Origin: Bradymonadales bacterium
GTDB lineage: Bacteria; Myxococcota_A; UBA9042; PWKZ01
Direction: 5' to 3'
Assembly (NCBI GenBank): GCA_003559575.1
Contig: PWKZ01000005.1
Span: 1 to 38,144 of the forward strand
DNA length: 38,144 nucleotides
Positions 22,373 through 36,048 of the stretch are shown piece after piece. The notes under the pieces were generated by a model. The model saw nothing but the letters and a program-made list of their open reading frames with translations. It was not told the origin of the DNA and made no database searches. How positions within the stretch are numbered: the first letter of the stretch is position 1; every line of letters begins with the position of its first letter. A program made the position numbers and the translations under genes.

Positions 22373-22786
22373 ATGACAACCCGCCGGGTACAAAACTATG
22401 TCTGCACAAGCTGCCCCATCGGCTGCCCGCTGCAGCTCGTCCATGAGGGTGACGAAATAGTGGAGATCGAGGGGCAAGAGTGCAATCGGGGAGCCAAGTA
22501 CGCGAAACAGGAGTTCGTCGATCCGCGCCGGACATTCGCGACCACGGTGCCCATCGAGGGCGCGCTCTACGCGCGGTTGCCCGTCAAGCTGTCGGCCCCG
22601 ATCCCAAAGCACCTCATGATGGCCGCGATGGGCGAGATCCGAAAGCTCTCGGCCCGCGCCCCCGTCGCGCTCGGCCAGGTCATGCTCCGCGATGTGGCCG
22701 GGGTCGCGGGGGTCGATGTGGTGGCGAGCCGCACGATCCCAAGAACCCTCTGCGCTCCCGACCCTCGCGCTGAGAGCCGCGCCTAG
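22373..22786 (+). CDS. DUF1667 cysteine-rich protein
   Basis: The protein is 137 residues from the ATG at 22373, with GGAG 8 nt upstream and only 5 nt after the previous stop. Residues 9-40 hold four cysteines (Cys11, Cys14, Cys18, Cys37) in the pattern CTSCPIGCPL with GQECNRG, resembling the N-terminal iron-sulfur segment of molybdopterin oxidoreductases. The rest (RTFATTVPIEG and VKLSAPIPK) matches DUF1667. It probably carries an iron-sulfur cluster and serves as the third subunit of the oxidoreductase module. Its stop codon shares three bases with the stop of the convergent sbcC gene (CTAG at 22783-22786). Confidence 0.9.
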   Translation: MTTRRVQNYVCTSCPIGCPLQLVHEGDEIVEIEGQECNRGAKYAKQEFVDPRRTFATTVPIEGALYARLPVKLSAPIPKHLMMAAMGEIRKLSARAPVALGQVMLRDVAGVAGVDVVASRTIPRTLCAPDPRAESRA

Positions 22787-25700
22787 GCCGGCACCCGGAG
22801 TTTGCTCGCGCCGGGGCCCGTTTTATGCACCTCGACCCTCGCTCCGATCCTCTCGGCGAGGCCAGGGACGTGAGAGATGACCCCCACCTGACGCCCCTCC
22901 GCCTGCAATGTGTCGAGGACGTGCAGCGCCGTATCGAGGGTCTTGGGGTCGAGGCTGCCGAACCCCTCGTCGATGAACAGCGACTCGATCCGAGTGCCCG
23001 TCGCCGAGAGCGCGGAGAGCGCCAGGGCCAGCGCCAACGAGACGAGGAAGCTCTCGCCGCCCGAGAGGCTGGCGACACCTCGCACCTCGTCCCCCATGTG
23101 CCGGTCCAAAACCTGCAACTCGAGCTGGGTGCGGGGCACACGGACAAGCTCATAGCGCTCGGCCAGCCCCTCTAGCTGCGCGTTGGCCTCGTCGAGCAAG
23201 ACCTCCAACGTCAGGCTTTGGGCGAAGGCGCGGAACCGCTTGCCGTCGTACGAGCCGATCAGATCCGCAAGCTCGCGCCAGACCTGACAGCGTCGCTCCT
23301 GGGCGGCGACGTCGGGCGCCAGCGCCACCCGCTTCGCGCGCGCCCGGTCGTCCGCCTCGAGTACGGCGCGACAATCGGCGCGACTGGTCTCCGCCGCCTC
23401 TCGCCGCCCGCGCGCTTCCGCCTCGGCCGCTTCCGCGGCGGCGCGAATCCGAGTCGGCTTGCGCTCTGAGGCTTCATGGTGCTCGCGCTGCTTGCGGCTC
23501 GCGCTGTGCTCGCCGCGCGCCTCGGAGACGGCCTCATCCAACCGCCTCAAAGCCTCTCGTTGCGCGGTGAGCCACTCATCGCCCATAGCGAGCCTCCGGC
23601 GCAGCGTCGCCTCATCGACCTCGAGCCGCGCGAGCGCATGGTCGAGCGCCGCCCGCGCCGACGCCTCCTCCTCTTGGGCCTCCGCGCGCGCCTTGCCAGA
23701 TGCCTCGCACGCCGCCCGCGCCTCCGACGCCGCGCTCTGCTTGACGTTCAAGGTCTCTTGCGCGCTCCTCGTTCGCGTCTCGGCGACCTCCACCGCCTTG
23801 TCCAGGCGGCGCGCCACATCTCCCGTGGCCTCACCGCCAAAGAGCGCCCGCCGCGACTCTTCCAACTCAGCCGTCCGGCGGCGCGCCGCATCGAGGTGCG
23901 CATTGTGCTCGCTGAGCGCGCGCGTCCGCTCCACCGCCGCTTGCGTGAGCGTATCGAGTTCGCGCTGGTGGCCGCTTAAAACCTCGCGCGCCGCATCGCG
24001 CGCCGCGACTTTCGCGTCCCAGGCGGCGACGTCATCCGCCGCGCTCCCGGCGAATTTACGCGGGTCATCGCGGAGCCGCTCGCGCCACGGCGCCGTGCTC
24101 CCCGAAAAAGCCGGCACCAACGCCTCCATCGCGCGCTCGGCGGCCTTGCGCTCCCTCTCTCGCTCCTCGCGCGCGCGAGTGAGTTCCCCCTCGGCGGTTC
24201 TCGTTGCGAACTCGGCGCGCTGCGCCTCCTCCCGCGCCCGAGAGGCTCTCTTGCCGGCCTCCTCGACCACTCGTTGCGCCTCGAACTCGGCGGTGAGGAG
24301 CCCCTCTGTCCGTTGCTCCTCGGACTCCAGCGCGACGAGCGCCTCATCAACCTCCTCGCGCCCCCGCGCCAGCTCGTCCTCGGCCGTGGTCGCGAGCGGC
24401 AGGGCGGCCACCTCGGGGCCATCCGGCAAGGCCGCGAGCGCCGCGCGCGCCTCCCGCCACCCCTCCTCCGCCGCCGTGAGCGCCGCGGCCCCCTCCTCGA
24501 GGGATCGCGCGCAAGCGGCGCCCCGCTCCCGGGCGACGCCCCGCTCGCGCTCGGCCTGGTGGGCATCAGCGACGATCCGCGCCCGCACCGCCTCGAGCTC
24601 CCGGACCCGCTCGTCCTGCCCGGCCAGCGCCTCCCGCCCCGGCGCGCCCTCGGTGGCCCAAGGGTGCTCGGTGGCGCCGCACAGGGGACAGGGCGCGCCG
24701 GCCGCGAGGGTCGCCCGACGCTCCTCGAGCGAGAGCGCGGCCTCGAATGTCGAGAGCGCCCGGCGCGCCTCCTCAAGCTCCCGCGCGACCCCCTCCGAGA
24801 GCCGCTCAGTCTCGGCGATCTTGGCGTCCCCGTCCGCCACCGCCTGAGCCATCTCGTCGGCCTCCGCGCGCGCCTGCGCGCACTTCACCTCGGCGGCGAG
24901 GGCGGCCGCGCGCAGCCCGACGAGATCTCGGTAGGCGTCCCGCCGCCGCTCGACAGCGCCGCGCCGGGCGCGCAGCTCCTCCCGCGAGGGCGCCGCCACC
25001 CGCGCCGCCTCGGCCGCTCGTCGCGCTGTCTCGGCCGCCTCGGCCGCTTCCTTTGCCTCTGCCGCCTCAGCCGTGAGCTCTTGAGCGGTCGTTCGGGCGG
25101 CGTGCGTCTTTTGAGCGCACTCTTTTTCCGTCGCAGTGGCGCGCTTGAGCGCCGCCGCGGCCTCGCCGTAGCGCGCGATCTCCTGCTCAAAACGCGACCA
25201 CCCGGCGGCGAGCGGCGCCAGCTGTGAGTTCTCGTTGAGCCACTTCTCGGCGGCCTCCCGATCGCGCGCGGCGGCCGCAAGGCGCGCCTTCTCCTCATCC
25301 TCGGCCCGGCGGGCGTCTTGAGCGGCCGTCTCCGCCGCGGCGACCCGCGTCCGCACCTCGCGCTCCGCCTCACGCGCGGACTCGAGGAGCGTGTCGAGCC
25401 GCTTGGCCTCATCGAGCATCGCGCCCGCCTCGTCCCGCGCCCGCGTGGCCCTGTCAAGCTCCTCGCGCGCCGCGGCGTGCTCACTCTCGGCGCTCGTGAG
25501 CGCCGTTTGCGCCGTTTGCGCCCTCTCTTCGCCGGCCCGAAGCTCTTTTGCGCGTCCCTCCGCGGCCGCGACCGCGCGGTCGTGGCGTTCGAGGATCCCC
25601 CGCTCCCGCACCGCCTGCTCGATGGCCAACAGCTCGGCGCGCTCGGCGGCGCTCGCCTCGACCTGCCGCTCCCTCTCGGCCAAGACCCGCGAGGCCTCCC

Positions 25701-26529
25701 GCTCGGTGGCCAGCAGCTCGTCCATCCGCTCGTACCAGGCCACCTCCATTCGCGCGCGGTCCGCGTCCCGACGTGCCGCGGCGGCCGCCCCCTCGGCCGC
25801 TTCAAGCGCGCCCTCCCGCTCGGTCCGCGCCTCGCCGGACAGAATCTCGAGCTGGACCACCCGCTCCTCCAACTTCTCGAGCGCCTTCTGCTCCTCGCGC
25901 GCCCGCTCGTGGGCGAGCCTGGACACCTCGCCGTAGCAGGACCGCATCATCGCCTCGAGGAGCTTGGAGCGCTCGACCTCGTCGGCGTCGAGGAAAGCAC
26001 GAAACTCCCCCTGAGCCAGCAAGACCGACCGCCGAAACTGATCGAAGTCGAGCCCGACACGCTCCTCGATGGCCTGAAGCGTCTCGCTCTTCGTCCCTCC
26101 GAGGGCCTGGCCGGTGTCGCGCGCGCGCAGCTCGACGGTCGAGGCCTGCAGTCGCCCATCGGGCCGCCGTCGCGCGCGCCGAACGCTCCAGCGGGCGCGG
26201 TAGGGGCGCCGGTCGCGGCCGACGAAGTCCACCTCGGCGAACCCCTCCGCGCACCCGCGCCGCAGCATCTGGCGGACGTCGTTGCTCTTGATGAGATCCG
26301 TCTCCTCCTCCTCCTCGTGCCCGATGAGCACCCCACCACGAGCGAAGAGCCGCGGCGTCTTGTCGAACAGCGCGAGACACATGGCGTCGAGCAACGTGCT
26401 CTTGCCCGACCCGGTGGGGCCCGTGATGGCAAAGAGCCCCGCCTCGCCGAGCGGCCCCTTGGCGAGATCCAGCTCGAACCGTCCATCGAGGCTCGCGAGG
26501 TTCAGCCCCCGAATCGCCAAAATACGCAT
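22783..26529 (-). CDS. sbcC: Exonuclease subunit SbcC (Rad50-like ATPase)
   Basis: This 1248-residue protein is slightly longer than E. coli SbcC. Its ATG (26529) shares one base with the sbcD stop. The N-terminal ATPase half has Walker A GPTGSGKST (37-45). Two very long Ala/Glu/Arg-rich coiled coils flank the zinc hook CPLC (Cys614, Cys617). The C-terminal half has the ABC signature SLSGGES (1154-1160) and Walker B with D-loop LFIDEGFGSLD (1184-1194). With SbcD it forms the Mre11-Rad50-type nuclease that opens hairpins and processes blocked DNA ends. The third-position GC is very high, so the opposite strand shows long spurious frames. It is co-transcribed with sbcD and a methyltransferase gene. 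Confidence 0.97.
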   Translation of the reverse strand: MRILAIRGLNLASLDGRFELDLAKGPLGEAGLFAITGPTGSGKSTLLDAMCLALFDKTPRLFARGGVLIGHEEEEETDLIKSNDVRQMLRRGCAEGFAEVDFVGRDRRPYRARWSVRRARRRPDGRLQASTVELRARDTGQALGGTKSETLQAIEERVGLDFDQFRRSVLLAQGEFRAFLDADEVERSKLLEAMMRSCYGEVSRLAHERAREEQKALEKLEERVVQLEILSGEARTEREGALEAAEGAAAAARRDADRARMEVAWYERMDELLATEREASRVLAERERQVEASAAERAELLAIEQAVRERGILERHDRAVAAAEGRAKELRAGEERAQTAQTALTSAESEHAAAREELDRATRARDEAGAMLDEAKRLDTLLESAREAEREVRTRVAAAETAAQDARRAEDEEKARLAAAARDREAAEKWLNENSQLAPLAAGWSRFEQEIARYGEAAAALKRATATEKECAQKTHAARTTAQELTAEAAEAKEAAEAAETARRAAEAARVAAPSREELRARRGAVERRRDAYRDLVGLRAAALAAEVKCAQARAEADEMAQAVADGDAKIAETERLSEGVARELEEARRALSTFEAALSLEERRATLAAGAPCPLCGATEHPWATEGAPGREALAGQDERVRELEAVRARIVADAHQAERERGVARERGAACARSLEEGAAALTAAEEGWREARAALAALPDGPEVAALPLATTAEDELARGREEVDEALVALESEEQRTEGLLTAEFEAQRVVEEAGKRASRAREEAQRAEFATRTAEGELTRAREERERERKAAERAMEALVPAFSGSTAPWRERLRDDPRKFAGSAADDVAAWDAKVAARDAAREVLSGHQRELDTLTQAAVERTRALSEHNAHLDAARRRTAELEESRRALFGGEATGDVARRLDKAVEVAETRTRSAQETLNVKQSAASEARAACEASGKARAEAQEEEASARAALDHALARLEVDEATLRRRLAMGDEWLTAQREALRRLDEAVSEARGEHSASRKQREHHEASERKPTRIRAAAEAAEAEARGRREAAETSRADCRAVLEADDRARAKRVALAPDVAAQERRCQVWRELADLIGSYDGKRFRAFAQSLTLEVLLDEANAQLEGLAERYELVRVPRTQLELQVLDRHMGDEVRGVASLSGGESFLVSLALALALSALSATGTRIESLFIDEGFGSLDPKTLDTALHVLDTLQAEGRQVGVISHVPGLAERIGARVEVHKTGPGASKLRVPA

Positions 26530-27803
26530 CAGCGGTCCTCTCGTGTCGCCAGCTCGACTAATTCGTGGTACGCCTCCAGGAGCGCGGCGGAGAGTTCGCC
26601 CTCTCGCCCCGACTGCTCAAAGCAACGCCGCAGGACATCTTCCGGGGAGAGATCGACCAGGGTCTTGGCGCGCTCGCCGTCCGCGAGAGCGCCGCGCCGA
26701 CGCGGAGTGTCGACCCGCAACGACACGAGCCGTGGGTGCCGCCCCTCGAGCGCGGCGGCGACCTCGCTCCTCACCCCTCGGGGATTCTCCACGGAGACGC
26801 GCACCTCGAGATAGGGGCGCGTCTCGAAAGCAACAGTATGGTCGAGCGGCGGCAACGCTCGCAGGGCGCAAAGTGCCTCGTCGAGGGGAGCGAAGCCCTC
26901 GTCGGGGATCCGAAGAATATCAACGACCCTCGGCACCCGCAGCGAACGCACCTCGTGGAGTTCGGCACCCTTCAATTCCACGAGACAGACCTGGTGGGGG
27001 TAGCGCTCCTCGTCGATCGCCAACGGGATCGGGGAGCCGGCGTAGCGCACGTTCCGACGGTCGCCCACCTTTTGGGCGAGGTGGAGGTGGCCGAGCGCCG
27101 CGTAGGTCACCTCGTCTCCAAAGATGTCGACCGGAAGTGCGTGCTGGTTGCCGCCGAGGATCTTGCGCTCGGAGAGATCCGAGAGCTTGCCCCCGGTCAT
27201 GTAGCAGTGCCCCGTGACGAGGAGCGCCTGATCCGGCGAGCGCCGGGCAAGCGCGGCCGCCACCCCCTCCGAGTAAACCTCGCGCACTCCCTCGATGATC
27301 GGATCGCCCGAATCGGCTGAATCGGCGTCACCTTCGAGTTCAAGGGGGCGGCGGCGCAAATCGCCCGGCCGGAGATACGGCACGGCCGCCACGAGCGCGC
27401 CCACTCGGCCCGCGTCGTCGTGGAGCGGCAGGATGAGGCGCGAGACGTCGAGGGAGCCGTCGGCGCGGCGCGGGAGCGCGCCCACGAGGTGGACACCGAA
27501 GGCCTCCAGAATGGGCGCCGGCGCCGAGAGCCGCGCGCCGGAGTCGTGATTGCCGGCCACGGCGACGATGTCGAGTGTCGGGCGGCGCGCGCGGGCCCGC
27601 CCCAGGAACTCGAACCACGCGCGCTGGGCTGTGGCCGATGGGTTGGCCGTGTCGAAGATGTCGCCGCTCACGATGAGCGCGTCGACTCTCTCCTGCTCGA
27701 TCTGGTCGAGCAACCAGGCCAAAAAGCGTTCATGCTCATAGGCACGCGGCAGATCGAACCAGGCGTGCCCGAGATGCCAGTCGGCCGTATGCAAAACCCG
27801 CAT
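26529..27803 (-). CDS. sbcD: Exonuclease subunit SbcD (Mre11-like nuclease)
   Basis: This is a 424-residue protein of ordinary length. The calcineurin-like phosphoesterase motifs are in order: DWHLG (Asp8, His10), GDIFD (47-51), GNHDS (84-88), GHCYM near 195, and GHLHL near 240. The C-terminal third has the capping region (VRVSVENPRG and similar) and a helical end that should contact the SbcC coiled-coil base. It is the Mn-dependent nuclease of the SbcCD complex. The stop overlaps the sbcC start by one base. The methyltransferase gene ends 20 bp upstream. No strong ribosome-binding site is visible before the ATG, suggesting translational coupling to that gene. Confidence 0.96.
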   Translation of the reverse strand: MRVLHTADWHLGHAWFDLPRAYEHERFLAWLLDQIEQERVDALIVSGDIFDTANPSATAQRAWFEFLGRARARRPTLDIVAVAGNHDSGARLSAPAPILEAFGVHLVGALPRRADGSLDVSRLILPLHDDAGRVGALVAAVPYLRPGDLRRRPLELEGDADSADSGDPIIEGVREVYSEGVAAALARRSPDQALLVTGHCYMTGGKLSDLSERKILGGNQHALPVDIFGDEVTYAALGHLHLAQKVGDRRNVRYAGSPIPLAIDEERYPHQVCLVELKGAELHEVRSLRVPRVVDILRIPDEGFAPLDEALCALRALPPLDHTVAFETRPYLEVRVSVENPRGVRSEVAAALEGRHPRLVSLRVDTPRRRGALADGERAKTLVDLSPEDVLRRCFEQSGREGELSAALLEAYHELVELATREDR

Positions 27804-27823
27804 GATCGTAGTCCATGTTGTCG

Positions 27824-28426
27824 CTAATGACGACGCCAGCGATAGAAGCGCATCGGGGGAACATTGAGGAGCTCGGTTTCGACCTCCGGCTCGCCCAAGA
27901 GTTGGCGCCCCAACACCGCGACGCGGTCACGCACCTGATAGGCCACGAAGCAGCCGCCCGCAGAAAGGGAATCGTAAGATTCGGAGATCACCCGGCGCCC
28001 CAGCTCGCGCGGCATGGTCGAAAACGGGATCCCGGAGACCACCACATCGGGCGCCGCCGACTCGTGCTCCGCGAGGATTGAGCGGATGTCGGCGGCGCTG
28101 CCCAGATGCACCGTGAGGCGCGGGTCGGGGTGGCGGCGCAAGACCTCGACGAACTCGGGCGTCAGTTCGATGGCGAGGAGCCGCGCCGTGGGCCGCATGG
28201 CGTCCAAAATGGCCTGGGTGGTCCCACCGGTCCCGGGCCCCAGCTCGACTATGAAATCGGCCGCCCCGATCTCGGCGAACCGCACGAGCCGCCGCTCCAG
28301 AAAGCGAGAACTCGGCACGACGGAGGCCACTTGCTCGGGGTGGCGCAAAAATCCGCGCAAAAACGCAAAATTGCCACGCCCCTTGAGTTTCTGATGTTTC
28401 GCAGAAGATCCGGCCGGCGCAGTCAT
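27824..28426 (-). CDS. SAM-dependent methyltransferase (PmtA/rRNA-dimethylase-like)
   Basis: This is a 200-residue protein; AGGAG lies 8 nt before the ATG at 28426. The class I methyltransferase motif I is IVELGPGTGGTT (59-70), followed by LLAIELTPEFVEVLRR as motif II and PDVVVSGIPFSTMP as the motif IV region. The N-terminal FLRHPEQVASVVPSSRFLERRL is characteristic of small phospholipid N-methyltransferases (PmtA type) and relatives often annotated as rRNA adenine methyltransferases. Phosphatidylethanolamine methylation is a plausible activity, but a nucleic-acid substrate is not excluded. It is the first gene of the operon with sbcD and sbcC, an unusual partner for a lipid enzyme. Confidence 0.85.
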   Translation of the reverse strand: MTAPAGSSAKHQKLKGRGNFAFLRGFLRHPEQVASVVPSSRFLERRLVRFAEIGAADFIVELGPGTGGTTQAILDAMRPTARLLAIELTPEFVEVLRRHPDPRLTVHLGSAADIRSILAEHESAAPDVVVSGIPFSTMPRELGRRVISESYDSLSAGGCFVAYQVRDRVAVLGRQLLGEPEVETELLNVPPMRFYRWRRH

Positions 28427-28497
28427 AATTGACTCTCCTGAGTTGGTTTATCGACAAAACTCACCCGAAGGATACCTGCTTCGAGCGTGAAGTCGAG

Positions 28498-28515
28498 CCA
28501 TAATCCCCATAATCC
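28498..28515. repeat. Two perfect 9-bp direct repeats upstream of the methyltransferase-sbcDC operon
   Basis: CCATAATCC is repeated back to back, 72 bp upstream of the methyltransferase ATG. It coincides with the left edge of dispersed repeat copy 2. It may be an operator half-site pair, or simply part of the repeat. Confidence 0.6.
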
Positions 28516-28656
28516 ACCACCTGCGCCGGCATTCGGCTGCCGATTCAGGCACATCTGCGGCGTCACCTGCACCGAATTATTGCTCGACGTAGGCGCTGCG
28601 TTGGCCTCCGCACAAGAACGGTTTGTTTACTTGCACACGCGCCTCCACCTCAGAAC
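28508..28656 (+). repeat. Dispersed intergenic repeat, copy 2
   Basis: This is the same block order and spacing as 2201-2363, beginning at CATAATC with CACATCTGCGGCGTCACCTG 42 bp on. The core from 28550 is nearly identical to copy 1. Its right edge overlaps the last codon and stop of the topoisomerase-helicase gene. It occupies most of the 223-bp gap between that gene and the methyltransferase gene. Confidence 0.85.
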
Positions 28657-31600
28657 GAGCCAACGATTATGGCCAGTAGCCGCCGCCCAAACTTTTCATT
28701 CATCTTGGGGCCGAACCCACGCACCGCCAAAAGCTCGGCCTCGCTGGAGGGGGCGGCGGCGGCGATGGACACGAGCACCCTGTCGCTCATGATGTGAAAC
28801 GCCGGGCAACGACGTCGTCGCGACTCGCCCCGCCGCCACTCCTTGAGCGCCGCCACGAGGTCGGGCGCCGCATCAGCCAGGGCGAGCGGTCGTTTCTCGA
28901 CCTTCTCGGCCCGCGCCGGCCTCGGGGCAGCGGAGCGCTTGCTCGAACGCCTGGGCGCCGCGCGAGACTTCTCTGTCCCGGTCTCGGCAACGATCAGTGA
29001 CACCTTCGCGAGAAGCTCCTTGCGAGTCCGCAGGCGTCGCCCGGCCGCCGACAGGTGGACCCGACGAAACGAGATGGTGCGGCCGTTTTTTTGAAACGAG
29101 TCGTCCACCAGAGAGACGAGACCCGCGCCCTGGAGCGCGTCCAAGAGCCTCTCGAAAGTTCGCCGCTCACAGAGGCCTTGGAACTCCTCCCGAAACACGT
29201 TCCCCACCGACTGCCCGGAGCGGTTCTTGAGGGTGGTCACGAGTCCGCTGAGGAGCACCGTCTCGCGTTTCGAGGGCGGCCGGTGACACTTCACCAGACA
29301 GGCGGTTGGAGCACAGACATCACAGACCCCACAGGGATCGCGGGAGTCGTGTTGGTCCCCGAAATGATCGATTATCTGCAACATCCGACAGCGCGAGGTC
29401 TCCGCGTAGCGCAGGACGGCGTCGAGCTGCGCCGCCTTGTGCGCCCGCTGGGCTTCGTAGGAGGCCGCCCAGTCGGGCCGCCCCCGTTTGACGCGCTCCT
29501 CCTCGTCGATGAGCGCTCCTCCGTGTACCCACAGGGACTCGAGCGTCCGCTGAAAAGTCTCGTCGTCCATCGAGAGCGACTCGGCCACCGCGGAGATCGG
29601 GGTGAACTCGTCCGACAGCGCCCGGTAGACACCCTCGGGGACACCTCGATCCGGGTAGTCGCGCTCGTGGAAAAACAGGTGCGTTCGCCTGTCGGCCCAA
29701 GAGTGCAACAAGACGGCCCGCGACGGAAATCCGTCACGCCCCGCGCGCCCAATCTCCTGGTAGTAGCCCTCGAGCGAACCCGGCAGGGCGGTGTGGACGA
29801 TGGTGCGCACATTGGCTTTGTCGATCCCCATGCCGAAGGCGATGGTGGCCACCACCACGTCGTAGCGACCTTGCAGGAAACCAAGCTGCGCCTGATCGCG
29901 ACCGGCGGCGTCCATCCCGGCGTGGTAGGAGACGGCTTTCAGCCGCTGCTTCAGGAGCTCGGCCAGCGTCTCCGCCTGTTTGCGGGTCGGCGCATAGACG
30001 ATGGCAGGCCGGCAGGCGGGGGGCGTGAGCAGCCGCAGTGTCAGCGGGCCCCGCTCGGGGACCGGAGTCTGAACCACTTCGACGGCGATGTTGTCTCGGC
30101 GAAAGCCGAAGATGAACCGTCGCGCGCGGGGAATGTTTAGTTCGGCGATGATGTCCTTCTGGACCGCGACGGTGGCCGTGGCGGTGAGCGCCACCACCGG
30201 GACCCGCGACTCACTCGCCAGAAGCGGCAGACGATCTTTCAGCATTCGATAATCAGGACGAAAATCGTGGCCCCAGTGGGAGATACAGTGCGCCTCATCG
30301 ACCGCCACCAGCGAGAGACGCCGACGAGCCAGAAACTCAACGAACCCCGGTACGCGCAGCCGCTCAGGCGCGATGAACAGATAGTCGAGCGCGCCGCGCA
30401 GGTATGCGCGACATACCTCTCGTGACTCTTCGCGCCCACGGCCGGAGTGGATCCGATCGGCTCTGAGCCCCTGGGCCACAAGGGCGGCCACCTGATCTTC
30501 CATCAACGCGATGAGTGGGCTCACCACGAGAGTCGTCCCACCACGCGCGACGCCGGGCAGCTGATAGCAGAGGCTCTTGCCGGCTCCCGTCGGCATCACC
30601 AGCAAGGCATCCCGCCCATGAGCCACCGCCATACAGACCGACTCCTGATGTGCCCTGAAAGATTCGAACCCAAATGAGCATCGGAGCAGCTCGCGGAGCC
30701 TCGCCGGAGTCACCTCGCCCACCTGCGGCGGCACCGTGTCGCGACCTGCCACCGCCGGCGCAGCAACCTTTGGCGGCGGGCCATCCGGCGGAGTTGTCGG
30801 TTGATTATCTCGCACCACCCTGCTCGGCAATGACGGGCTCTCTCCCCCCGTCCCGCTGTCGAGCGCGCCCATGATCGCCACCAGCCACGCCCGGACATCT
30901 CGCATGAACTCTTCGAGCGCGCCGCGCCCGCGCTCGATCTCGCGGAGGCGGTACTCCCACTGCCCGGTGAGCGCCGGGCGGCGGACGTCCTCGTGCACCG
31001 CGGCGATGAGCGCGATACCGCGCTCGGACGCCCGTAAAGCGCGCCCCTGCCGAACGACATAGCCTCTCTTCAGGAGCGTCTCGATGATGGCCGCGCGGGT
31101 CGCCGGAGTGCCCAACCCGCGCTCGCGCATCGCGTCGGACAGCTCTTTGTCTTCAACCGTTCGCCCGGCGGTCTCCATCGCCGTCAACAGGGTCGCCTCG
31201 GTAAACGCCCGCGGAGGGCGGGTGCGCTTTTGTTCGCACCGGACATCCAATACCTCCTGGGCGTCACCCACCGCCAGGCCGGAAGGCAAAGCCGGCAGTT
31301 CGTCCTCTTTTTTTCCTGATCCCGACTTGTCCGCGCCGCGGCCTTCGGCGCGCTTCGCGGGCGTCTTGAGGGGCTCGAGCACGCGCCAGCCCTGTTGTTC
31401 CACCATGCTGCCACGCGACAAAAACAGATCCCTCTCGGGCGCCTCCACCGAGGAGTGAACTTCGGTTATGAGCCTGGTGGTCGCCCACTTGTGATCACGG
31501 TGCCAGGCAGCCAACAGCCGGCGGCAGACGAGATCGAAAATCCGGGCCTCGGCGCTGCCGTCCGGGAGCAAGTGATGGCGCGCCCGGCCGGTGGGGATGA

Positions 31601-32792
31601 TGGCGTGATGGTCGCTCACTCGGCTGTCATCGACAAAACGACGGCCAAGCGGACGAGTGCCGGTCTCCGGCGCGAGAAGATCCTCATACGGCCCGGCTAT
31701 CGAGGCCACGATTGCCGGCAAGGTGCGGGCCACGTCGCTTGTCAGGTGGCGGCTGTCCGTGCGCGGATAGGTGATGAGCTTGTGGCGCTCATATAGCTTC
31801 TGAGCCACCGCCAGGGTGCGCTCGGCGCTCAATCCGTAGAGCCGATTGGCGTGCCGCTGCAGCTCGGTCAAATCGTACAGCAACGGCGGCGGACGGACGC
31901 GGCGCCGTTTGTCGATGTCGACCACGACCGCTTGACCACGCTTGACCCGCCGCGCAATCTTCTCCGCCTCGGCGCCGTCGGGAGGCAGCCGAGTCGGGTG
32001 GTTGACCGCCTCCTCGCAGTCCTCCTCCAAGCGCGTCGCGCTCTTGGCCACGGGGCCACGAAACCAGACCCCCTGATAACTCTCGTCGGCCTCGGCGGAA
32101 GAGCGAAGCGGCGCGAATCGGGCCACGACTTCCAGGTAGTCCTCGGGCACGAAATCACGTATCGCGTGCTCGCGCTCTACCAACATGGCGAGCGTCGGGG
32201 TCTGCACCCGCCCCACGGACAACACCTCGCCGCGGTCGTTGTCGTCGCGCATGAGCAGTGTGTAGGCCCGCGACAAGTTCATCCCCACGAGCCAGTCGGC
32301 CCGCGAGCGCCCCTTGGCGGCATCCGCCAGGTGATCGTAGTCGCCGCCCGGCCGCAGGCGCTCAAACCCTTGGGCGATGGCCTCTTCGGTGAGCGACGAG
32401 ATCCAGAGCCGCCGCGTCGGTTTGCGGCATTTGGAGTGTTCATAGAGGTAGCGAAAAATGAGCTCGCCCTCGCGCCCGGCGTCGGTGGCGCACACCACCT
32501 CGGTCGTGGCGCGCGCTCGAAGAAGCCTCCTCACCACCCCGTACTGGGCGGCGGTCTTTTCGACCATCATGAGCGGCCATTGATCGGGGAGGAGAGGTAA
32601 ATCGGCGCGCCGCCAGCGCCGCCAGGCGGAGTTCATCTCGTCGGGCTCGGCCAGCCGAACGAGATGCCCGAGCGCCCAGGTGACCGCATAGCCGTTGCCT
32701 TCGAAATATCCCTGCGCTTTGTGCTCCGCCTTGAGCACACGCGCGATGTCACGCGCCACCGAAGGTTTTTCGGTCAACACGACAGTGGTCAT
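28650..32792 (-). CDS. topB: Topoisomerase III-RecQ helicase-HRDC fusion protein
   Basis: The protein is 1380 residues from the ATG at 32792 ([15 protein letters not shown]), which overlaps the pcrA stop as ATGA. Residues 1-640 are a complete type IA topoisomerase of the TopB class: [15 protein letters not shown] (7-15) and TDAGREGEL (103-111), [13 protein letters not shown] (194-206), and the catalytic Tyr342 in TYPRTDS. A proline-rich linker spans about 645-695. Residues 696-1170 are a RecQ helicase: Walker A MPTGAGKS (733-740), DEAH (832-835), GRAGRDG (1015-1021), and zinc ligands Cys1135, Cys1154, Cys1157 and Cys1160. A winged-helix region follows, then a basic low-complexity linker and an HRDC domain (about 1310-1378). 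RecQ and Topo III normally act as separate partners to decatenate and dissolve recombination intermediates; here they are one chain. All key residues are present, so both activities are expected. Confidence 0.95.
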
Positions 32793-35020
32793 GAGTTCAA
32801 CAGCTCGAGATAACGAATCATGATGCTGCGCTGCCCCACATGCGGGAAATCCACCAGGACGCAGTCTTCTCGCCCGCCGACGATGGTGCCGATCCCGAAG
32901 CTCGAGTGGCGCACTCGCCGCCCGCGCGCCTCCTCGAGCGTGAGCCCCTCGCACGGCTCAATTACCTCCGGAACAATGCCCTCCGGATCCCCATCAACAT
33001 CGCGAGATCTTCTCTCGGCGCCCATCTTGAAGCTCAGGCTGCCCGGCGCGATGGCGACAAGCCCGGCCGGCAGCTCGTTCAGGAACCGCGACGGCGCCTG
33101 GTAGGCAAGCTCATCCCAATGGCGTCGCGACTGCGCGAAGGTAATAAAAACCCGCTTGCGCGCGCGGGTCAGCGCCACGTAGAACAGGCGCCGCTCCTCC
33201 TCCACCCCGCCCTCGTCAAGCCGAGAGTTGGAGTGAGGAAAGATGCCCTCCTCGAGCCCGCTGACGATGGCCACCTCGAACTCGAGCCCCTTGGCGGCGT
33301 GGACCGTCATCAAAGTCACGCGCTGCTCTTCTTCGGTCATCGTATCCAGGTGGGTCAGGAGCGCGACCTCGTCGAGATATGCCTTGAGCGAAGGATCCTG
33401 GGCGCGCTCACAGAACTCGGCCACCGAGCTGACGAGCTCCATCAAGTTATCGTGTCGGCCCTGGGCTTCGACGTCCTCGCCCGCGTGCGACAAATACTGG
33501 CTCAGGTAGCCGCTCCGATCGAACAGCGCCTTGACCACCTCCAGTGCCGTGGCGTGGCTCTGGAGCGCGCCAACCGAGGTCAGCATGTGGTGAAAGTCAC
33601 GCAAGCGCGTCTCGCCGCGCTTGATGGCCGAAGCGCAGGTCGGGATGGCCTCGAAGGCCCCCACCCCCCGCGCTCCGGCCAGCTCGAGAAGCCTCCCGAC
33701 GGTGACCGGGCCGATGCCGCGTTTGGGCTTGTTGACCACCCGCGCAAAGGCGATGTCGTCCTTGGGATTGACCAGCAAACGCAGGTAGGCGAGCACATCC
33801 TTGACCTCGGCGCGCTCGAAGAAGCGGATCCCGCCGACGACCCGATAGGGGATGCTCTCGCGCCCGAGCGCCTCTTCGAAGAGGCGACTTTGGGCGTTGG
33901 TGCGGTAGAGGACGGCGATCTCGTTCAGGGGCGTCGCCACTCCCTCTGAGCGCACCAACGCGGCCACACGAGCCGCCTCCTCCCGGTCGGATTGGCAGAG
34001 ACAGAGGCTTAGCTTCTCCCCGGGCGCCGTGGAGGTCCAGAGGCGCTTGGCGTGGCGCTTGCGATTGCGGGCGATCAATTCGCCGGCGGCCTCCAGGATG
34101 ATTCCCGTCGAGCGGTAGTTTTGCTCGAGCCTCACGATGTGCGCGGAATCGAAGAGATTGGGAAAGTTCAGGATGTTCTCGATCCGCGCGCCGCGCCAAC
34201 TGTAGATCGACTGATCGTCATCGCCGACCACCGTGAGCCCCGCGCCGCTCCCGCGCTCTGAGTCCGCCACCAGCATTCGGATGAGTCGCCCCTGGATCTC
34301 GTCCGTGTCCTGGAACTCGTCCACCAAAACGTAACGCCAGCGGCGCTGATAATCGGCCAGCAGCAGCGGGTAACTCATAAACATCTTGACCACCCGCCAC
34401 AGGAGGTCGCCGAAATCAACCGCGTTCATTGCGCTCATCCGGCGCTCATAGCTCGGATAGAGCCGGGCCGCGAGATGCTCACTGGCCGATTGCGCGCGCC
34501 CGGACTCACCAACCCAGTCGCCGGCCGACACCTCTTCGGGGCCGAGGCCGCGTCGTTTGAATTGCTCGATCAGATTAGCTATCGCCGCCGGGCGAATTCG
34601 CTGGGGGTCGACGTCGTTGTCGATCATGACCCGCTTGATGACCGCCTCCTGATCGGCCACGTCATAGACCACGAACCCCGGTCGCAGCCCGGCAAGCGAA
34701 GAGTGGCGCCGCAGCACTCTCAGCCCCACCGCGTGAAACGTCCCGATCGTGGCCCGCTCGGCCCGCTCACCGAGCAACCGCACCGCCCGGTGGCGCATCT
34801 CGCGCGCCGCCTTGTTGGTGAAAGTGAGCGCCAACAGTGACTCGGGTGGATAACCGCAGCGCGCGGCGAGGTAGGAGAGCTTGTGCGTGATGACCCGTGT
34901 CTTGCCGCTGCCGGCACCGGCGAGCACCAACACCGGACGATCGACGGTCTCGACGGCGTCGCGCTGCGCCGCGTTCAAATCGGCCAGAAGATCGCCATTC
35001 AATGTCTCGTCCGCGATCAT
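32789..35020 (-). CDS. pcrA: UvrD/PcrA-type superfamily 1 DNA helicase
   Basis: The protein is 743 residues from the ATG at 35020, whose last template base is shared with the glmU-like stop; a TTG one codon upstream is less likely. Motifs are the Q-motif region LNAAQRDAV (15-23), Walker A AGAGSGKT (34-41), FTNKAAREM (67-75), GTFHA (93-97), DEFQDTD (234-240), [13 protein letters not shown] (266-278), and [11 protein letters not shown] plus VALTRARKR in the C-terminal half. Residues 699-743 form a Tudor-like end ([13 protein letters not shown]...), as in PcrA, where it contacts RNA polymerase. It unwinds DNA 3'-to-5' in repair, replication-fork rescue and removal of recombinase. Overlaps on both sides couple it to glmU and to the topoisomerase-RecQ gene. 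Confidence 0.96.
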
Positions 35021-36048
35021 CAACCCTTACTCTCCAGGCGAACTGTGAGCGGCGAGACCTGCGCGCCCGCCGGCACGAGCGCGCCGTGCAACACTGCGTT
35101 GGCTCCCACTCGGGCCTCTTCGCCGAGCACGGTGTCGACCAGCACCGCCCCGGGGCCGACCGACGCGCCCGTGGCAAGGCGGGTGGCGCCCCGTAGCATG
35201 ACGCCCGGCCCAACGACACAGTCTCGCGCAAGCTCCACCTGCGGCTCGATCCATGTGGTGCGAGGATCTTCGAAGGTCACCCCGGCCAGCATCCACTGTT
35301 CAAGCAGCCGTCGGCAGAGCACGCGCGCCGCCGACGCCAACTCGACCCGGTTGTTGACCCCCTGCATCTCGCCCGGGTGGTCGAGCGTCGACGCGAAGAC
35401 CTTGCGCCCCCGCGCCACCATCCACGCCACAATGTCGGTCAAGTAGAGCTCCCCTTGCGCGTTGTCGTTTCGCACCTCCGAGAGCGCCTGAAACAGATCG
35501 CTCCGCCGCGCCAGATAGGCGCCCACGTTCACCTCCCGCACACGCATCTCCTCCGGCGACGCGTCGCGCGCCTCACGGATGGCCCGCACCTCGGAGTCGG
35601 CCCCGCGCAACACACGGCCGTACTGTCCGCCGTCGGACAACTTGCAGGAGGCGAACAAGAGATCCGCGCACCGCTCGCGGTAGGTCTGCACCAAGCGTGC
35701 CAAGCTCTCAGCGCGCAACAGCGGCAGGTCGGCGTTCAAGAGCAGCAGGTGATCCCACCCGCGAGTGGCCTCGCGCGCCGCCAGCACCGCGTCGGCGGTG
35801 CCGCGGGGCGCGGCCTGCACCGCGAAGGTGAGATCCGGCGCGCCGACGTGCTCCGCGAGCGTCCGCGCGACATCGTCCTGATCGGGGCCGATGACCATCA
35901 CAATCGGCCGCGCCCCGACCTCGGCGGCGAGGGTCGCCGGCCATAGGGCGAGCGGTCGGCCCAACAACGAGTGAAGCGCCTTGGGACGCCTGGAAGACAT
36001 GCGGGTGCCCCGGCCGGCAGCCAGGACCACGGCGCCCAAACCATCCAT
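35020..36048 (-). CDS. glmU: GlmU-like nucleotidyltransferase, shortened acetyltransferase half
   Basis: This 342-residue protein compares with about 455 for normal GlmU. The ATG at 36048 has a G-rich site 8 nt upstream. The pyrophosphorylase domain is intact: VVLAAGRGTRM (7-17) with Lys23, QAAPRGTADAV (78-88), NADLPLL (105-111), GQYGRV (141-146), and GELYLTD (199-205) followed by GVNNRVEL. It should form UDP-N-acetylglucosamine from GlcNAc-1-phosphate and UTP. From about 253 a left-handed beta-helix begins (WIEPQVELARDCVVGPGVML...). It stops after a few coils, so the acetyl-CoA site and catalytic histidine of the second domain are missing. The stop overlaps the pcrA start by one base, and nothing suggests a frameshift. 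Glucosamine-1-phosphate acetylation must be done by another protein, or the substrate differs. Confidence 0.88.
   Translation of the reverse strand: MDGLGAVVLAAGRGTRMSSRRPKALHSLLGRPLALWPATLAAEVGARPIVMVIGPDQDDVARTLAEHVGAPDLTFAVQAAPRGTADAVLAAREATRGWDHLLLLNADLPLLRAESLARLVQTYRERCADLLFASCKLSDGGQYGRVLRGADSEVRAIREARDASPEEMRVREVNVGAYLARRSDLFQALSEVRNDNAQGELYLTDIVAWMVARGRKVFASTLDHPGEMQGVNNRVELASAARVLCRRLLEQWMLAGVTFEDPRTTWIEPQVELARDCVVGPGVMLRGATRLATGASVGPGAVLVDTVLGEEARVGANAVLHGALVPAGAQVSPLTVRLESKG

Follow-up and report, generated by a model that had tools for sequence, protein, structure and literature searches.

Gene organization at the locus

The window analysed herein, a stretch of 38,144 nucleotides from contig PWKZ01000005.1 of a Bradymonadales genome, carries on its reverse strand a gene in which a topoisomerase III (Topo III) is joined to a RecQ helicase. 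Translation of 28650-32792 (-) gave 1380 residues in an uninterrupted frame with a single, terminal stop, and the Pfam domains follow one another in the order Topo III, RecQ and HRDC, in agreement with the earlier note, which had proposed one continuous frame for these three parts. A stop or frameshift between residues 640 and 700, named there as what would speak against the proposal, was looked for, and none was seen in the translation. The features are listed below.

28650..32792 (-), gene of the Topo III-RecQ fusion (1380 aa); start codon ATG at 32792, stop codon at 28650-28652
30873..32792 (-), Topo III half, residues 1-640; Toprim 4-133, Topoisom_bac 152-630
31767..31769 (-), codon of catalytic Tyr342 (YPRTDSR), the first Tyr of the YPR motif, in 64/64 of the alignment rows listed
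30702..30872 (-), tether rich in Pro and Ala, residues 641-697, with predicted disorder after about residue 650
28653..30701 (-), RecQ half, residues 698-1380; helicase core, four zinc cysteines, winged helix, HRDC
30162..30653 (-), DEAD/DEAH domain (RecA1), residues 714-877, from Pfam
29730..30008 (-), Helicase_C (RecA2), residues 929-1021, from Pfam
29469..29660 (-), extra domain of about 64 residues, residues 1045-1108; helix-helix-helix-strand-strand in the model, winged-helix-like
29313..29462 (-), RecQ zinc-binding domain (RecQ_Zn_bind 1111-1160), Cys 1135/1154/1157/1160, from Pfam and alignment
29052..29270 (-), winged helix occupying the RQC position (residues about 1175-1247), seen in the model
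28665..28862 (-), HRDC domain, residues 1311-1376, from Pfam
32789..35023 (-), upstream UvrD/PcrA-like helicase gene, context outside the fusion; its stop overlaps the fusion start

The start at ATG 32792 is plausible because it shares an ATGA overlap with the stop codon of the upstream UvrD-like gene; a longer listed frame from GTG at 32954 is mechanical and was not taken as the gene start. Downstream of the fusion, the same strand carries SbcD and SbcC, and the region 22783-35023 (-) thus forms a one-strand row of UvrD-like helicase, fusion, methyltransferase, SbcD and SbcC. This row looks like an end-resection set and is not kept beside other fusions; a conserved UvrD/SbcCD neighbourhood was rejected, since none of the neighbours in the window was found beside another fusion. 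The Pfam family PDDEXK_1 (AddB/RecB-type nuclease) had no match in the 92% complete genome of the window. A triple fusion with an upstream protein was likewise rejected after inspection of the long N-terminal frame extensions in L057, L147, L017, L018, L013 and L140, which by eye are low-complexity GC-rich translation and carry no domain.

The topoisomerase III half

The fusion protein passed the curated cut-offs for topB (TIGR01056, 562.6 against 515.75 bits; PRK07726, 647 against 597 bits), with a Pfam Topoisom_bac match over residues 152-630 at E 5e-103. Residues 5-637 align with E. coli Topo III (TopB; PDB 1D6M, 1I7D) near full length at E of about 1e-99, and a Foldseek search with this half of the AF2 model of residues 1-700 (mean pLDDT 85.6; the two halves of the fusion were modelled separately) ranked E. 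coli Topo III first among the PDB matches, with TMt of 0.77-0.86. The catalytic Tyr is conserved, together with Glu8, Asp104 and Glu108, which represent Glu8 and the first Asp and the Glu of the TOPRIM motif of the E. coli enzyme in the alignment.

The fusion differs from E. coli Topo III at three points. The TOPRIM motif reads DAGREGE, with Gly106 in place of the second Asp of E. coli DPDREGQ; the decatenation-loop region, aligned at about 245-268, is of other length, varies in length among the fusions and is poorly modelled; and the C-terminus runs on into the tether and RecQ. The Gly of DAGREGE was found in all aligned fused members and in 20/22 free TopB rows, indicating a family trait and not decay. 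The earlier view that both halves keep all key residues thus stands for Tyr342, Walker A, DEAH and the zinc cysteines, and has to be given up for the second TOPRIM Asp.

The linker

In the AF2 model of residues 1-700, pLDDT falls to 32-47 over residues 651-700. Among the fused proteins, the linkers range from 32 to 137 aa (median 59), consist of P/A/S/T/G by 59% and exhibit no evident conservation. Since the linker is disordered and unconserved, it argues for tethering of the two enzymes rather than for a rigid channel between them.

The RecQ half

Key RecQ motifs are in place, including Walker A MPTGAGKS at 733, DEAH at 832 and a 12-residue motif at 1012, as are the aromatic-rich loop and the four zinc cysteines, and the alignment shows these features to be conserved in the fused relatives. 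The AF2 model of this half has a mean pLDDT of 91.5, the top PDB matches by Foldseek are the cores of BLM and bacterial RecQ, and the solved relatives of residues 698-1041 are again bacterial RecQ/BLM. With bacterial RecQ (E. coli 1OYW, Deinococcus 4Q47) and human BLM the fusion shares the SF2 core, the aromatic-rich loop after DEAH, the four-Cys zinc site, the winged helix and HRDC; unlike these enzymes, it carries Topo III at the N-terminus of its RecQ and an additional winged-helix-like domain of 64 residues ahead of the zinc domain. Pfam RQC gave no match in the fusion protein, and HRDC is missing from some complete fusion relatives, for instance that of Polyangium (L027).

The fusion passed the cut-off of the RecQ family model recQ_fam (TIGR00614, 364.8 against 219.8 bits) and failed that of the E. 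coli-type RecQ equivalog TIGR01389 (460.1 against 640.2 bits). Because of the latter score, the RecQ half is classified on sequence as a divergent RecQ subfamily and not as a simple E. coli-type RecQ. The extra domain at 1045-1108, between RecA2 and the zinc domain, measures about 64 aa in almost every member of this subfamily, fused or free, gave no Pfam match, and is absent from the E. coli RecQ row as aligned; as the RecQ rows were trimmed to BLAST matches, distant RecQs may hide inserts of their own. The extra domain is therefore a trait of the RecQ subfamily and no product of the fusion.

A fusion of helicase and type IA topoisomerase is already known in the form of reverse gyrase (PMC8185306). 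Both proteins combine a type IA topoisomerase with a helicase module of SF2, which raises the alternative that the present fusion is a reverse-gyrase-like enzyme coupling ATP hydrolysis to supercoiling. We consider this highly improbable: the order is reversed, with the topoisomerase first, the Topo half belongs to another topoisomerase subfamily and is closest to bacterial Topo III, the motor is a canonical RecQ, and the score against the reverse gyrase model TIGR01054 is 91.7 against a cut-off of 471.7.

Distribution of the fusion

The genome of the window (3.95 Mb, 306 contigs, 91.9% complete) carries the fusion as its sole Topo III and as its sole RecQ over the family cut-off; the free topB and recQ genes, whose absence the earlier note had suggested checking, are both absent at this completeness of 92%. 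The other type IA topoisomerase of this genome is a TopA-like frame of 770 aa on contig 59, with 33% identity to fusion residues 91-622.

The same domain order was sought in related genomes, as the earlier note had proposed, and was found in dozens of independent assemblies. We identified a total of 44 distinct fused proteins with the topoisomerase followed by RecQ, both halves in frame, at an average identity of about 58% for the Topo half and 55% for the RecQ half. Many assemblies contributed to this set, among them those of the isolates Enhygromyxa salina SWB007 (L031) and Polyangium sp. 6x1 (L027). An assembly or frameshift artefact joining adjacent topB and recQ, for which one might point to the fragmentation of the window's genome into 306 contigs, is thereby reduced to a negligible chance, the frame itself having neither stop nor frameshift.

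About a third of the best 80 loci in the search of genome contigs were full or contig-cut fusions, labelled mainly as Myxococcota and Acidobacteriota; the few labelled as Chromatiaceae, Verrucomicrobia, FCB and Bdellovibrionota may represent mis-binned or misnamed MAGs. The fusion was detected in 11/53 genomes of the class of the window, in 18/142 genomes from seven families in an even sample of its phylum, and in 5/119 genomes of the phylum of an acidobacterial genome. A plasmid-borne fusion was also considered and rejected, no plasmid site covering 80% of the protein among the matches listed.

Five class-mates (G005, G026, G033, G041 and G031) carry neither the fusion nor a close match to free RecQ or Topo III; in the first four of these only a TopA-like match was found, G033 being 82% and G041 68% complete. 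Separate recQ and topB genes were observed on the same strand within about 1.5 kb in Listeria portnoyi (L061, 5977-11397), and the same linkage within about 1.5 kb was seen in Listeria monocytogenes among the matches listed. In Listeria the two enzymes are thus linked in a second way, by proximity of their genes.

Evolutionary history of the two halves

In a tree of 41 fused Topo III sequences and 19 free ones, from which four long or contig-cut rows were left out, the fused Topo halves formed one clade with support of 100/100, and within the sampled genomes no free Topo III was found inside this clade (L102, cut by a contig end, was scored neither as free nor as fused). The fused RecQ halves do not form one clade: free RecQs, defined by at least 1.2 kb of upstream sequence without a topoisomerase, nest among them, and monophyly was rejected with AU p = 7e-7 after removal of the contig-cut free RecQ rows. 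Many deep branches of the RecQ tree are poorly resolved. The distances of the two halves are correlated, with a Mantel r of 0.765 as against 0.189 for the best of 2000 permutations.

Because the Topo halves form one clade while free RecQs nest among the fused RecQ halves, the simplest reading of these trees would be a single ancient fusion, after which the topoisomerase half was lost repeatedly. Given the weakness of the deep RecQ branches, multiple fusion events or transfer may also have taken place. That related topB and recQ genes fused several times, instead of once with later losses, would agree with the lack of a single clade of fused RecQ halves and with the poor resolution of many deep RecQ branches, and is nevertheless judged unlikely in view of the single, fully supported clade of Topo halves and the lack of free Topo III within it.

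No topoisomerase remnants were found beside 23 free RecQs. Both states occur in genus g60, G123 being fused and G080 having a free RecQ, and the match between the two is limited to the RecQ part without surrounding synteny. The enzyme content of the genomes agrees with one fusion and repeated losses. In 19/21 fusion genomes the fusion is the only enzyme of Topo III type, accompanied by a single further type IA enzyme, which is of TopA type; among the free-RecQ genomes (n=11), 7/11 have a single type IA enzyme and no Topo III, and 4/11 have an extra Topo III of another clade. In 10/18 fusion genomes the fusion is also the only RecQ over the cut-off, a second RecQ being present in the remaining 8/18. 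We see balanced chances that this Topo III is an ancient clade of single origin that survives across Myxococcota and Acidobacteriota only when fused to RecQ, and is otherwise lost, while RecQ can be freed again.

Two genomes of family f39, G122 and G155, carry the fusion (L136, L137) plus a second Topo III-like enzyme. TopA was not found in them with PF01131, and they may live without canonical topoisomerase I.

Proposed function

Known RecQs are 3'-5' helicases. The fusion would act as a natural single-chain bacterial dissolvasome, a reading to which we give a probability of about three in four, with the coupled activity and its substrates proposed on the basis of homology. The C-terminal RecQ motor would unwind or branch-migrate joined DNA such as D-loops, double Holliday junctions and converging forks, exposing single strands for Topo III; the tethered N-terminal Topo III would cut one strand via Tyr342, pass the other strand and reseal; and the joined molecules would separate without nuclease cleavage. 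The disordered linker of 32-137 residues would hold both enzymes at one site with no fixed geometry. The fixed stoichiometry and the channelling of intermediates that the earlier note ascribed to a fusion are likewise putative effects.

Support for this reading comes from the intact catalytic motifs of both enzymes and the good modelling of the halves on E. coli Topo III and RecQ/BLM, from the 44 fused proteins that keep both halves in frame with correlated divergence, and from the single clade of Topo halves together with the lack of any other Topo III in most fusion genomes and of any second RecQ over the cut-off in 10 of 18, all of which are consistent with coupled function. The interpretation as dissolvasome, already put forward in the earlier note, is consistent with established enzymology: purified RecQ-family helicases and Topo III act jointly in the dissolution of double Holliday junctions and of late replication intermediates (reviewed in PMC8191776). 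Compared with the dissolvasomes Sgs1-Top3-Rmi1 and BLM-TOP3A-RMI1/2, the fusion employs the same two enzyme classes, probably for the same reaction, and differs in joining them covalently in a single chain; no RMI-like domain was among its Pfam matches.

Some observations point the other way. The variable length of the decatenation-loop region among the fusions may count against the dissolvasome reading. In E. coli, a 2026 study reported that Topo III works with RecG and not with RecQ, and noted that a physical interaction between RecQ and Topo III has not been observed there (PMC13244152), indicating that the pairing is not universal; the frequent survival of RecQ without the Topo half indicates that the partnership is dispensable in many lineages. 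It might accordingly be argued that the chain carries two independent enzymes, merely co-expressed and acting on different substrates at different times, as would suit a long, disordered and unconserved linker and a RecQ half viable alone in many lineages. We hold this to be quite unlikely, inasmuch as the arrangement is kept with both active sites intact over a large divergence in Myxococcota and Acidobacteriota, and the biochemical pairing of RecQ with Topo III is well established.

A role of the fusion as a replacement for RuvC was also considered, and was rejected after RuvC was found in 20/20 genomes checked. Owing to this coexistence, dissolution by the fusion would be an added junction pathway and not a substitute.

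Novelty and implications

The same two enzyme types have been joined by engineering in artificial Top3-Sgs1 fusion proteins of yeast. Those are laboratory constructs in a eukaryote, whereas the present fusion is natural and ancient. In the open-access literature we came across no account of a naturally occurring Topo III-RecQ fusion, an earlier mention elsewhere being possible, and database annotators may already have met this domain order. The fusion is real, is widespread beyond the genome of the window, and consists entirely of known enzymes whose joint function is predictable.

The cooperation of bacterial RecQ and Topo III in cells is disputed, though their cooperation in vitro is known. 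A fusion that apparently formed once and was kept over large divergence indicates that the two enzymes do cooperate in some phyla. It also offers a dissolvasome in one polypeptide for structural and single-molecule work, and the relatives that have lost only the topoisomerase half represent a natural experiment. If the restriction of this Topo III clade to fused forms is true, it would provide evolutionary evidence for an obligate RecQ-dependent bacterial Topo III, the opposite of the situation in E. coli.
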